IMG/VR virus record: IMGVR_UViG_3300027816_000321
Location: 1 to 28,616 of that record
Direction: 5' to 3' (one strand)
Length of the DNA stretch: 28,616 nt
Source: a virus
The position numbers were made by a program, and so were the translations under genes. Each line of letters begins with the position of its first letter. Within the stretch, counting starts at the first letter, position 1. Under the pieces are notes generated by a model. The model saw only the letters and a list, made by a program, of their open reading frames with translations. It did no database searches and was not told where the DNA came from. Shown here in pieces: positions 2,529 through 24,561 of the stretch.

Positions 2529-2602
2529 GCTCCGTTAGTTAAGTGGAATAACAGCTCACTTGTAATGAGCAGTCCGGTGTCCGATTCACCGCCGGAGCAC
2601 CA
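2529..2602 (+). tRNA. tRNA-Thr (anticodon TGT)
   Basis: Cloverleaf read by eye: acceptor GCTCCG pairs with CGGAGC (the seventh pair, T-C, is a mismatch), D stem GTTA/TAAC, anticodon stem GCTCA/TGAGC around the loop CTTGTAA, and T stem CGGTG/CACCG. CCA is encoded. Anticodon TGT reads ACA. The T loop is TCCGATT, so position 55 is C rather than the near-invariant T. Confidence 0.9.
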
Positions 2603-2606
2603 ATTT

Positions 2607-2684
2607 CGGAGCGTAGGTCAGCCTGGTTAGACCGCCTGCTTTGGGAGCAGGAAGTCGTGAGTTCAAATCCCACCGCTCCGACCA
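2607..2684 (+). tRNA. tRNA-Pro (anticodon TGG)
   Basis: Acceptor CGGAGCG pairs fully with CGCTCCG, D stem GGTC/GACC, and anticodon stem CCTGC/GCAGG around TTTGGGA, giving anticodon TGG for CCN codons. T stem GTGAG/CCCAC has one A-C mismatch, with the loop TTCAAAT. CCA is encoded. It lies 4 nt after tRNA-Thr, so the two are surely co-transcribed. Confidence 0.93.
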
Positions 2685-2703
2685 AAACCCGCCGTGTGAA
2701 GGC

Positions 2704-2729
2704 CAGAGGCAATGCCAATAAGACCTCTG
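2704..2729 (+). other. Stem-loop between tRNA-Pro and the next gene
   Basis: CAGAGG at 2704-2709 pairs with CCTCTG at 2724-2729 across a 14-nt loop that itself holds a small GGC/GCC pairing. No T-run follows, so it is more likely an RNA-processing or stability hairpin after the tRNA pair than a terminator. The gene at 2749 begins 19 nt later with the ribosome-binding site AAGAGGA. Confidence 0.4.
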
Positions 2730-2748
2730 ATCCTAAGAGGAAATCAAA

Positions 2749-2940
2749 ATGTCAGGAAAAGGTAGTAAACCAAGGCCATTAAGTGTTGACCAAAAAACAT
2801 TTGATGACAATTGGGACAAAATATTCAAAAAATCAGAAAATTGGGATCATTATAGTGATTTGCCAAGTCCCAACTCATATCAAGACATACTTTCTACGGA
2901 AGATTGCGTTTTAGACGCTTTGGATAAAATCCGACCGTAG
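2749..2940 (+). CDS. Small conserved phage protein (MSGKGSKPRP type)
   Basis: Encodes 63 residues from an ATG preceded by AAGAGGA. The start, MSGKGSKPRPLSV, followed by FDDNWDKIF is a recurrent signature of very small phage proteins that open with GKGSKPR. They have no known function. It sits between two tRNA pairs. Its stop codon TAG (2938-2940) is formed by bases 8-10 of tRNA-Arg, so the coding frame and the tRNA gene share 10 nt. Confidence 0.75.
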   Translation: MSGKGSKPRPLSVDQKTFDDNWDKIFKKSENWDHYSDLPSPNSYQDILSTEDCVLDALDKIRP

Positions 2941-3006
2941 CTCAGTAGATAGAGCATCTGCCTTCTAAGCAGAATGTCGCAGGTGCAAATCCTGTCGGTC
3001 GGTCCA
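2931..3006 (+). tRNA. tRNA-Arg (anticodon TCT)
   Basis: Acceptor CCGACCG pairs fully with CGGTCGG, D stem GCTC/GAGC, anticodon stem TCTGC/GCAGA around CTTCTAA (anticodon TCT, reading AGA), and T stem GCAGG/CCTGT. CCA is encoded. The T loop TGCAAAT has G at position 55. The 5' end overlaps the stop of the preceding coding sequence. Confidence 0.93.
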
Positions 3007-3011
3007 AATAC

Positions 3012-3087
3012 GGGCCGGTAGCTTAAACAGTAAAGCAAGCGACTCATAATCGCTGGAGTGTGGGTGCAAGTCCTACCCGGCCTACCA
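3012..3087 (+). tRNA. tRNA-Met (anticodon CAT)
   Basis: Acceptor GGGCCGG pairs with CCGGCCT (G1-T72 wobble), D stem GCTT/AAGC, anticodon stem AGCGA/TCGCT around CTCATAA, and T stem GTGGG/CCTAC. CCA is encoded. It lacks the C1-A72 mismatch and the three G-C anticodon-stem pairs of an initiator, so it is elongator Met or a lysidine-modified Ile tRNA. The T loop TGCAAGT has G55, and A occupies D-loop position 18. Confidence 0.88.
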
Positions 3088-19838: not shown

Positions 19839-20024
19839 ATGGCAAAACGAAAAGGTATTGAAACAAAAGCAGCACTTTTGCACCAACACTTTAGAGGAGA
19901 ACTCCAGAAAGCAGATGAAAATGAATTGGGTGATTGGTCACATGAGAACTTACAGAAAAATAGAGAAAGGTATATGAAGCAGCATTTCCCTTGGTTAGTA
20001 GAGGGATATAAAACACCGACATAA
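19839..20024 (+). CDS. Small helical protein
   Basis: Encodes 61 residues with a good AAGGAG binding site. Mostly helical and charged (MAKRKGIETKAALLHQHF, then WSHENLQKNRERYMKQHFPW). Its stop overlaps the next start as TAATG, so it is coupled to the PD-(D/E)XK nuclease and may act with it. Function unknown. Confidence 0.6.
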   Translation: MAKRKGIETKAALLHQHFRGELQKADENELGDWSHENLQKNRERYMKQHFPWLVEGYKTPT

Positions 20025-20701
20025 TGAAAACTTTTAATCATGTAAAATTAAGTGAATTGGACTTTGAATTAGAATCCGAAACAACAGAAGCGGGTAGGAC
20101 CTACAAGACACCAGGAGGAAAGTCCTACCCGTCTATCACAACCGTTCTATCCAACTACAACAAAAAAGCAATCTACGAATGGCGTCAGAGAGTTGGCGAA
20201 GAAGAAGCCAATCGTGTCTCTAGAGCTGCATCTGGTCGTGGCACCAAACTGCATAACGCTGTTGAGAAATATCTTTTAAACGAAATGAATGACCTGAAGT
20301 ATCAATCTATGATGCCCGATACAAAAGAGTTATTTCTCAAAGTGAAGCCATTTCTGGACAATCACATTGGCGACATATATGGTATTGAACAACCATTGTA
20401 TAGTGACAGATTGCAGATTGCGGGTCGTTGTGATTGTATTGCGGAATGGGAAGGTGAGTTATCTATTGTAGATTGGAAAACATCAACAAGAATAAAAGAT
20501 AAAGACCACATACAAAACTATTTTATGCAATGTACCGCATATGCTGAAATGTTTGAGGAAAGAACAGGCAAACCAATTCGCCAAATTGTTGTTGCAATTG
20601 CCGTAGAAGATTCAAATGTACCGTCAATCTTTATTGAAAACAAAGCTGATTATCTTTTGCCTCTCCAAGATTACATTTTACGATATAATAGACCCATATA
20701 A
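20024..20701 (+). CDS. PD-(D/E)XK nuclease (RecB/Cas4-like exonuclease)
   Basis: Encodes 225 residues. SGRGTKLHNAVEKYL carries the early glutamate (Glu-81). IAGRCDCIAEWEGELSIVDW gives Asp-137 and the Asp-150-x-Lys-152 catalytic pair. MQCTAYAEMFEE is the following Q-x3-Y helix, the ordinary order of RecB-like phage exonucleases. There are no four cysteines as in Cas4, so it is not an Fe-S protein. It probably degrades or resects DNA in phage recombination or host-genome breakdown. Confidence 0.85.
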   Translation: MKTFNHVKLSELDFELESETTEAGRTYKTPGGKSYPSITTVLSNYNKKAIYEWRQRVGEEEANRVSRAASGRGTKLHNAVEKYLLNEMNDLKYQSMMPDTKELFLKVKPFLDNHIGDIYGIEQPLYSDRLQIAGRCDCIAEWEGELSIVDWKTSTRIKDKDHIQNYFMQCTAYAEMFEERTGKPIRQIVVAIAVEDSNVPSIFIENKADYLLPLQDYILRYNRPI

Positions 20702-20708: not shown

Positions 20709-21017
20709 ATGGGTAAAAAATTACTGTCAACTTTATTGTTTCTACCTGCGTTAGCTATAGCACAGGTTGACTATGTTCAATTTGAAACTGTTTGTGTGAG
20801 TAAAAAAATGCTTGATGAAACAGTTGCAAAACACGGCGAGAAACCTTTTGTAATAGCCGTTGGGCATAGATTGGTGGATGAAAAAAAGGTATTTCATCCT
20901 GTTATAATGTTTATGAATCCTAATACTAAAACTTGGACTCTTGTAGAAAGAATTGAGCCCGATACATTTTGTGTTGTGGGTGTTGGCTCAAAAATGGAAC
21001 CGTTTTTTAGTAAGTAA
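20709..21017 (+). CDS. Small exported protein
   Basis: Encodes 102 residues. MGKKLLSTLLFLPALAIAQ is a typical signal peptide with cleavage after Ala-18. The mature part is a small beta-rich domain with two cysteines (ETVCVSKK and DTFCVVG), which may be joined by a disulfide. It is the gene directly upstream of the permuted tmRNA, and the two may be co-transcribed. Function unknown. Confidence 0.65.
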   Translation: MGKKLLSTLLFLPALAIAQVDYVQFETVCVSKKMLDETVAKHGEKPFVIAVGHRLVDEKKVFHPVIMFMNPNTKTWTLVERIEPDTFCVVGVGSKMEPFFSK

Positions 21018-21080
21018 AGAATTCGTTGAAGGTTGTAAAAGATGCGTTGGACGGGGGTGCGAATCCCCCCATCTCCACCA

Positions 21081-21142
21081 AAAGCATATTCCGAACCGAG
21101 TATTCTGGTAGCGAATGGTGAAAACCTGAATATGCTTCTGAT
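21081..21142 (+). other. Spacer of the permuted tmRNA precursor
   Basis: The 62 nt between the acceptor CCA and the first G of the coding piece form a hairpin: AAGCATATTC (21082-21091) pairs perfectly with GAATATGCTT (21128-21137). In known permuted tmRNAs this segment is removed, leaving two RNA pieces. RNase P would cut before G21143, and 3' trimming would stop at CCA. Confidence 0.75.
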
Positions 21143-21248
21143 GGGGATGACTAGATTTGACAGCGTATGTAATAAACAACTGGAGAATCGGCAAAGCCAA
21201 AGCCGTTAGGGTTGAGACAACTCGGCCGAAGAAGCAAAAACTACAAAC

Positions 21249-21281
21249 GCCAATGATGAGCGCTTTGCTCTAGCCGCCTAA
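21249..21281 (+). other. tmRNA tag reading frame (ANDERFALAA)
   Basis: GCC AAT GAT GAG CGC TTT GCT CTA GCC GCC TAA encodes ANDERFALAA and a stop. The end ALAA is the degradation signal read by ClpXP and related proteases. The frame is open further upstream (to GCA at 21234), so the exact resume codon is inferred from known tags. Confidence 0.88.
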
Positions 21282-21298
21282 AGGTTAGATGAGGTTTC

Positions 21299-21330
21299 AC
21301 CAACTGCACCTTATAATCCAAGCAGTTGGT
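21299..21330 (+). other. 9-bp stem-loop at the end of the tmRNA region
   Basis: ACCAACTGC (21299-21307) pairs perfectly with GCAGTTGGT (21322-21330) around a 14-nt loop. It could be a structural hairpin closing the coding piece or a processing signal. It lacks a T-run, so it is a weak terminator. Confidence 0.5.
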
Positions 21331-21354
21331 ATTCTTAATTAAGGAGATTATAGT

Positions 21355-21483
21355 ATGAAAGCAGTCGCACTTATCGCAGCATCGTTGTTCGCAGTAACCG
21401 CCTTTGCTAATGCACCGAAGAAAGAAGAGCCAAAGAAAGACGCTCCGAAAGCTGAAGTCAAAAAAGACGAAAAAAAGAAGTAA
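21355..21483 (+). CDS. Small exported Lys/Glu/Pro-rich peptide
   Basis: Encodes 42 residues with a strong AAGGAG binding site. MKAVALIAASLFAVTAFA is a signal peptide with cleavage after Ala-18 or Ala-20. The mature part is only about 22 residues of Lys, Glu, Pro and Ala (PKKEEPKKDAPKAEVKKDE). It lies 24 nt after the tmRNA stem-loop and just before a terminator. The composition resembles small periplasmic proteins of betaproteobacteria. Function unknown; perhaps a periplasmic or wall-interacting peptide. Confidence 0.65.
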   Translation: MKAVALIAASLFAVTAFANAPKKEEPKKDAPKAEVKKDEKKK

Positions 21484-21487
21484 AAAT

Positions 21488-21512
21488 ATGGTGGGCTTGT
21501 CCCACCATTTTT
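21488..21512 (+). terminator. Rho-independent terminator
   Basis: ATGGTGGG (21488-21495) pairs perfectly with CCCACCAT (21501-21508) around CTTGT, followed by a T-run at 21508-21512. It closes the transcript that carries the tmRNA region and the small peptide. Confidence 0.85.
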
Positions 21513-24025: not shown

Positions 24026-24337
24026 ATGGCAAAATACACTTTTACTTGTGAACACTTTGATTATGACAATTATCGTGGTGATGAACTTGATGTTGCATCA
24101 AAACACACCACAGAATTTCGTGCAGATACTTTAGAAACTATGCTTGAAAACTTTGAAATGTTCTTGCGTGGTGCAGGATTTCAGTTTGATGGTGTTTTAG
24201 ATGTTGTGAAACCAGAAGAAGAGATTGTATATCACAATGATGATATTCAGTTTGACTTCTCTGAAATTCCACAAAACAACTGGCCATTTGCAGAAAATGT
24301 TTCACGCTCTGAAATTAATTTTGCGAGTGAGAAGTAA
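24026..24337 (+). CDS. Conserved small acidic phage protein
   Basis: Encodes 103 residues. MLENFEMFLRGAGFQFDGVL and NNWPFAEN form a pattern that recurs in T4-type genomes near gp33. Acidic, mixed alpha/beta. Stop overlaps the next ATG as TAATG. Function unknown. Confidence 0.68.
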   Translation: MAKYTFTCEHFDYDNYRGDELDVASKHTTEFRADTLETMLENFEMFLRGAGFQFDGVLDVVKPEEEIVYHNDDIQFDFSEIPQNNWPFAENVSRSEINFASEK

Positions 24338-24561
24338 TGCCTACAAAAGATGAAATGGGAAAGTTTGCGAAAGCGATTGATGCGTTAGTAGCAAACACCG
24401 ATTTAAATTACATAGAAGCAATCGTTCAATATTGTAAAGAAACCGGTTTAGAGATTGAAGTGGCGGCATCATTAGTGAATTCAAATCTTAAATCAAAATT
24501 AGCTAATGATGCCATGGATTTAAATTTATTAAAAGATAAAGGTTCTAGGCTTCCAATATGA
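24337..24561 (+). CDS. 33: gp33-like late-transcription coactivator
   Basis: Encodes 74 residues. The C-terminal part (YIEAIVQYCKETGLEIEVAA, then LVNSNLKSKLANDAMDLNLL and SRLPI) matches the conserved end of gp33 homologues in T4-type cyanophages. T4 gp33 binds the RNA polymerase flap and links it to the sliding clamp at late promoters. The position directly before a gp59-like gene agrees with the T4 59-33 neighbourhood, although the order is reversed. Assigned from pattern only. Confidence 0.72.
   Translation: MPTKDEMGKFAKAIDALVANTDLNYIEAIVQYCKETGLEIEVAASLVNSNLKSKLANDAMDLNLLKDKGSRLPI

Follow-up and report, generated by a model that had tools for sequence, protein, structure and literature searches.

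The Permuted tmRNA Gene and Its Anatomy

The window, by which we mean the whole stretch of 28,616 nucleotides of viral DNA that was analysed, carries a circularly permuted (two-piece) tmRNA gene at 21021-21335 on the plus strand. Two Rfam models matched this gene above their curated cut-offs, RF04321 (tmRNA_permuted; 21021-21281, 102.9 bits, E 2.7e-19, cut-off 47 bits) and RF01850 (beta_tmRNA; 20981-21350, 90.2 bits, E 2.9e-26, cut-off 84 bits), and a permuted tmRNA with the tag ANDERFALAA was called by ARAGORN at 20988-21372. Among the three older lineage models, the beta model gave the highest score (90.2 bits), followed by the alpha model (51.0, also marginally above its cut-off of 50) and the cyano model (31.5, cut-off 70). 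The coding part precedes the acceptor part in a one-piece tmRNA (RF00023); in the window this order is reversed, and the CCA at 21078-21080 is followed by a 62-nt spacer and then by G21143.

The acceptor piece (21021-21080) consists of the 3' strands of helix 2, the T arm, the acceptor 3' strand, the discriminator A and the encoded CCA. Its 5' end is placed provisionally at the start of the RF04321 match, and a conserved block, reading ATTCGT or TTGTTGTA in most of the 30 related viral genes that were aligned, begins at 21021. The T stem-loop (21053-21069, GGGGG TGCGAAT CCCCC), with G as loop nucleotide 55, is paired in 100% of the alignment cells, and 5/5 of its pairs are changed on both sides. 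The acceptor 3' strand (CATCTCC, 21070-21076), followed by the discriminator A (21077) and CCA, pairs with the acceptor 5' strand (GGGGATG, 21143-21149) in a 7-bp stem, the G3-U70 pair of which is formed by 21145 and 21074. Between these strands lies the intervening spacer (21081-21142), whose 10-bp hairpin (21082-21091/21128-21137) is paired in 95.3% of the cells, with 10/10 pairs changed on both sides.

The coding piece (21143-21335), delimited by the RF04321 and RF01850 alignments and approximate at its 3' end, comprises the acceptor 5' strand, a D-loop-like region, the partner strands of helix 2 (21161-21188), the PK1 region, the tag and a 3' hairpin. Helix 2 is built of blocks of 8 bp (21042-21049/21161-21168), 6 bp (21031-21036/21176-21181) and 4 bp (21021-21024/21185-21188), paired in 92%, 72% and 100% of the cells, respectively. 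The PK1 region (21189-21229) aligns poorly, and its stem CGGC/GCCG (21189-21192/21202-21205) has the least support of all the helices (pairing in 64.6% of the cells, four pairs changed on both sides). The tag frame at 21249-21281 (GCC AAT GAT GAG CGC TTT GCT CTA GCC GCC TAA) encodes ANDERFALAA and a stop, a degradation-signal ending; the same tag is also present in several betaproteobacterial tmRNAs. In the 3' region (21291-21329), the main block of the hairpin (21300-21307/21322-21329) is paired in 92.3% of the cells and a possible pseudoknot (21291-21294/21309-21312) in 82.5%. The window gene departs from the betaproteobacterial host consensus in its D-loop-like sequence (TAGATTTGAC vs TGGTTTCGAC) and in its T loop (TGC vs TTC), and its D region is one base shorter than the model.

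An earlier, sequence-only reading had proposed a permuted two-piece tmRNA with a G3-U70 acceptor stem, a spacer hairpin linking the pieces and a tag ending in ALAA. The model matches, the ARAGORN call and the pairings given above bear this out, and all of its coordinates agree with the sequence between 20800 and 21600; helix 2 is likewise present, in three blocks and not in the two that had been described. For the T4 late promoter TATAAATA, one match was found, at 20697, against 1.84 expected by chance, and it was discarded; sigma-70-type promoters near the gene gave weak matches alone, about as many as in shuffled sequences.

Pairing Between the Two Pieces

The structure tested across the 30 related viral genes included the acceptor stem, T stem, three helix 2 blocks, spacer hairpin, PK1 stem, 3' hairpin and pseudoknot. 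The acceptor stem was paired in 210/210 cells and occurred in eight distinct sequences (e.g., GGGGATG/CATCTCC, GGGCCTG/CAGGTCC, GGGTCTG/CAGATCC and GGGCCAG/CTGGTCC), with G3-U70 and CCA invariant. Changes on both sides were found in 46 of the 56 tested pairs, and the covariation score was 0.492 vs 0.179 for the control. The whole structure was paired in 90.1% of the cells, compared with 71.9% after shuffling and 43-50% when the partners were slid by 1-3 columns; as the structure was derived from the window, the slid control somewhat favours it, but the acceptor stem and the size of the difference are independent of that. Folding of the acceptor stem with the spacer gave -28.5 kcal/mol (z = -4.84), which none of 200 shuffles equalled, whereas the acceptor piece and spacer folded without the coding piece were no better than shuffles (z = -0.86). 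The low-energy fold thus emerges solely when the coding-piece strand is included.

In the elbow of tRNA, D-loop nucleotide 18 contacts T-loop nucleotide 55. These two nucleotides sit on different pieces of the permuted gene (21150-21160 and 21053-21069, respectively), and the window has the combination G55-A18. Among 132 distinct viral genes, 76 have G18-U55 and 56 have A18-G55, and mixed combinations are absent. The counts of U55-G18 vs G55-A18 were 40 vs 1 in the sampled betaproteobacterial genes and 0 vs 26 in the alphaproteobacterial ones. The covariation of 18 and 55 is independent support for one tRNA-like domain built from both pieces. Together with the acceptor pairing and the covariation of the other helices, it shows that both pieces belong to one RNA, and the possibility that they derive from unrelated RNAs is refuted.

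A Fixed Locus in T4-Like Phages

The assignment of the gene to a phage was upheld: the window phage is T4-like, encoding gp32, gp59, endonuclease VII and the phrog_298 and phrog_107 exonucleases. Upstream of the tmRNA gene lies the PD-(D/E)XK exonuclease (phrog_298, 20024-20701), and downstream follow a small protein (24337-24561) that, by its position alone, is probably the late-transcription coactivator gp33, the helicase loader gp59 (phrog_269, PF08993; 24558-25151) and the single-stranded-DNA-binding protein gp32 (phrog_224, PF08804; 25704-26585), which is up to 60.7% identical to cyanophage gp32; all of them are on the plus strand. The window also holds four tRNA genes (Thr, Pro, Arg and Met, 2529-3087), all with encoded CCA, and those for Arg and Met, at 2931 and 3012, have TGC in the T loop, with G at nucleotide 55, and AG in the D loop.

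A first pattern scan alone yielded at least 120 viral contigs with permuted tmRNAs, and 195 viral loci with the gene were examined overall; incomplete loci were included and duplicates kept, so that the following counts are not rates. In 101 loci the exonuclease precedes the tmRNA on the same strand, and within 6 kb it was never found on the other strand or on the downstream side; the gp33-like protein, gp59 and gp32 were located downstream in 80, 93 and 57 loci, respectively. Retrieval by the exonuclease protein alone, which avoids selecting contigs by their tmRNA, yielded 49 viral contigs also holding a gp33-like or gp59 landmark, several of them copies of one phage, and 45 of these contain a permuted tmRNA. 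In five further close relatives, in which the landmark was out of reach, no permuted tmRNA was found. In five contigs (L310-L314), the exonuclease is 89% identical to that of the window, and the 5 kb downstream of it show no permuted tmRNA; the SleB gene is more distant, and loss or insertion is possible.

Contigs nearly identical to the window (99.84-99.96%) occur in three other IMG/VR records, and the locus is common to phages whose gp32 is 50-79% identical to that of the window. An open tag frame ending in AA, as in ANDERFALAA, is present in most relatives. In the cyanophages S-CREM1 and S-CRM01, the exonuclease is followed directly by gp33, with no annotated tmRNA between them. The tmRNA gene occupies a fixed locus, in the order exonuclease, tmRNA, gp33/gp59/gp32, which is kept in a phage lineage. 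A separate viral group with permuted tmRNA (L207, L215, L220, L235 and relatives) has tags that are predicted to be short or unusual, such as ADAELVAA, and shares none of its neighbours with the window.

It had also been suggested that small exported genes next to the tmRNA are part of the system. This suggestion was rejected: their homologues flank the tmRNA in just 4 and 5 of the 195 loci, and at least three of the 4 and of the 5 are copies of the same phage. A gene encoding a lysine-rich protein of 42 aa with a signal-peptide-like start is located 3' of the tmRNA at 21355-21483; its homologues are rare in this neighbourhood, and a good terminator-like hairpin follows it at 21488-21508.

Proposed Function

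Gene anatomy, covariation and locus point to a functional two-piece tmRNA that is owned by the phage and works via host factors, and we consider this reading highly probable. Against it stand the departures of the D-loop-like and T-loop sequences from the host consensus, a beta-model score far lower than those of three sampled host genes, the weak support for PK1 and the lack of a clear promoter in the searches described above. A single precursor would be transcribed through the acceptor piece, the spacer and the coding piece. Host RNase P would cleave at G21143, host tRNA 3'-end processing (RNase Z and/or exonucleases) would trim the acceptor piece to the encoded CCA at 21080, and the spacer hairpin would be removed. 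The two RNAs would be held together by the 7-bp acceptor stem, helix 2 and the 18-55 elbow contact. Host AlaRS would charge the CCA end via G3-U70, and host SmpB and EF-Tu would bring the charged RNA to stalled ribosomes, where translation would restart at GCC 21249 and the ANDERFALAA tag would direct the product to host proteases. Processing, alanylation, delivery and tagging as proposed here follow the established biology of two-piece tmRNAs (PMC3985003; PMC3968760), and the two-piece tmRNA of Caulobacter is functional according to work cited in PMC3985003. SmpB was not found in the 15 phage records searched, most of them longer than 100 kb, so the protein would have to come from the host. 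The probable benefit for the phage is continued recycling of ribosomes at a time when mRNAs are cleaved and the host has ceased to transcribe. If the gene works in this way, many phages supply their own ribosome-rescue RNA yet depend on host SmpB, and the role of trans-translation in infection becomes testable through one small gene.

A tmRNA-like antagonist or decoy, which would bind SmpB, AlaRS or stalled ribosomes and blunt host trans-translation, is improbable. Divergent elbow and acceptor stems would suit such an RNA, and according to work cited in PMC11915505 the tag-less tmRNA of phage DS6A had an inhibitory effect on the endogenous tmRNA in E. coli. However, almost all relatives retain CCA, the AlaRS determinant and a full tag frame whose end is of the degradation type, none of which a decoy would need.

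Relationship to Host ssrA Genes

The window gene resembles betaproteobacterial genes without being typical of them, since the beta model, although the best-scoring of the older lineage models, gave 248-336 bits for three betaproteobacterial host genomes vs 90 for the window gene. When the gene was compared by BLAST with 399 Burkholderiales genomes, the alignments covered chiefly the T arm and the tag segment, where identity reached 89% over 46 nt. A maximum-likelihood tree built from 185 mature sequences places the window gene with three other phage genes (support 100/98), while all sampled betaproteobacterial genes form a separate clade (99/95) with two viral contigs inside; the tree is unrooted, its sequences are short, the bootstrap had not settled and the host sample is mostly Rhodocyclales. 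The beta model thus fits the gene, whereas the tree does not group it with betaproteobacterial genes, and the position of the phage clade outside the host clade makes the gene "beta-like" rather than part of the lineage of host genes.

CCA is encoded in 30/30 aligned phage genes, 22 of which, besides the window, were retrieved through the exonuclease only, and is not encoded in 63 of the 64 sampled beta host genes. The spacer is 62 nt in the window and has a median of 59 nt in the phage genes vs 28 nt in the sampled beta hosts, where a search pattern allowing 20-50 nt biased the median downward; the CCA comparison is unaffected by this. When bacterial genomes were scanned with a pattern of phage-length spacer and encoded CCA, no hits were obtained. 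The acceptor stem and spacer (21070-21149) vary widely among close phage relatives, and the sampled beta hosts nearly all have GGGGGTG. Since the acceptor strands lie close together in a permuted gene, one recombination event could be enough to exchange the entire cassette.

A more far-reaching proposal has a small chance of being correct. It holds that non-cyanobacterial T4-like phages carry a two-piece tmRNA lineage of their own that is old, has been inherited vertically and is locked between the exonuclease and gp33/gp59/gp32, and that the divergence of this lineage from host ssrA is adaptive: with swappable acceptor-spacer cassettes and an A18-G55 elbow unable to carry pseudouridine 55, the RNA would work and escape RNA-targeting factors of hosts or rivals during infection.

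The tag, the 46-nt segment around it and the ranking of the three lineage models would also suit a recent capture of a betaproteobacterial host ssrA, for instance by imprecise excision, with the gene carried as a passenger. Beyond the tag and T-arm segments, however, almost nothing aligned in the 399 genomes, and from this and the tree a recent capture from a sampled host appears unlikely. The supported phage clade, the conservation of the locus over phages with such divergent gp32 and the encoded CCA also argue against capture, and the passenger reading as a whole is decidedly improbable.

Comparison With Known Systems

The sequence-only reading had regarded a two-piece tmRNA in a phage as a departure from the mostly one-piece tmRNAs known from phages, but its novelty is limited, given the report of 2022 on the two-piece tmRNA of phage Melnitz and the 195 viral loci described here. 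In that report, ARAGORN classed 53 of 133 unique structures of phage tmRNAs as two-piece, and 50 of these 53 were from marine or aquatic samples (PMC9004378); 79 phage tmRNAs were listed elsewhere, where RF04321 was built (PMC11915505). Phage two-piece tmRNAs have been known mainly from marine phages, and the best-studied case is alphaproteobacterial-linked. The present results suggest that T4-like phages, among them relatives with beta-like tags, have an element that keeps its locus throughout the lineage and differs from the sampled host genes. Neither the constancy of the locus across lineages nor the covariation of 18 with 55 nor the difference in encoded CCA was found in the literature, the coverage of which was incomplete, and no priority is claimed for them.

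Like the window phage, the Methylophilales phage Melnitz (MZ577097) is T4-like and has a permuted tmRNA, and the order is the same: PD-(D/E)XK nuclease, tmRNA, late-transcription coactivator, gp59 and gp32 (PMC9004378). The Melnitz gene scores as alpha type (106.7 bits alpha, 25 beta), whereas the window gene scores as beta type (51 alpha, 90 beta); a glutamine riboswitch accompanies the Melnitz gene (PMC9004378), and none was found in the window by a gathering-level Rfam search. The shared locus would also allow the alternative role of phage tmRNA proposed in PMC9004378, but the window tag is of the host type and gives no sign of selectivity, making this role highly improbable for the window gene.

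The betaproteobacterial ssrA described by RF01850 is similar to the window gene in gene order, helix 2, tag type (ANDERFALAA) and 3' hairpin, and differs from it in the elbow, which is G18-U55 in 40/41 host genes and A18-G55 in the window. The short D region and the low beta-model score relative to hosts might be taken as marks of a degenerate pseudogene or a chance match, but in 30 relatives compensatory change is strong, the tag is unbroken and the acceptor strands pair perfectly, which leaves this a negligible probability.

The Stenotrophomonas T4-like phages DLP_6 (KU682439) and Marzo (MZ326868) also match the permuted models above their cut-offs, with 136.8 and 119.0 bits for RF04321 and 103.7 and 94.6 bits for RF01850, respectively. 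Their hosts are gammaproteobacteria, which are not among the groups in which two-piece tmRNA has been reported. Their permuted genes, at 1951-2294 in DLP_6 and 1941-2315 in Marzo, are unannotated (DLP_6) or simply named "tmRNA" in their records. In the tree they form a clade separate from that of the window, and the Marzo tmRNA, unlike that of the window, is located inside a tRNA cluster.
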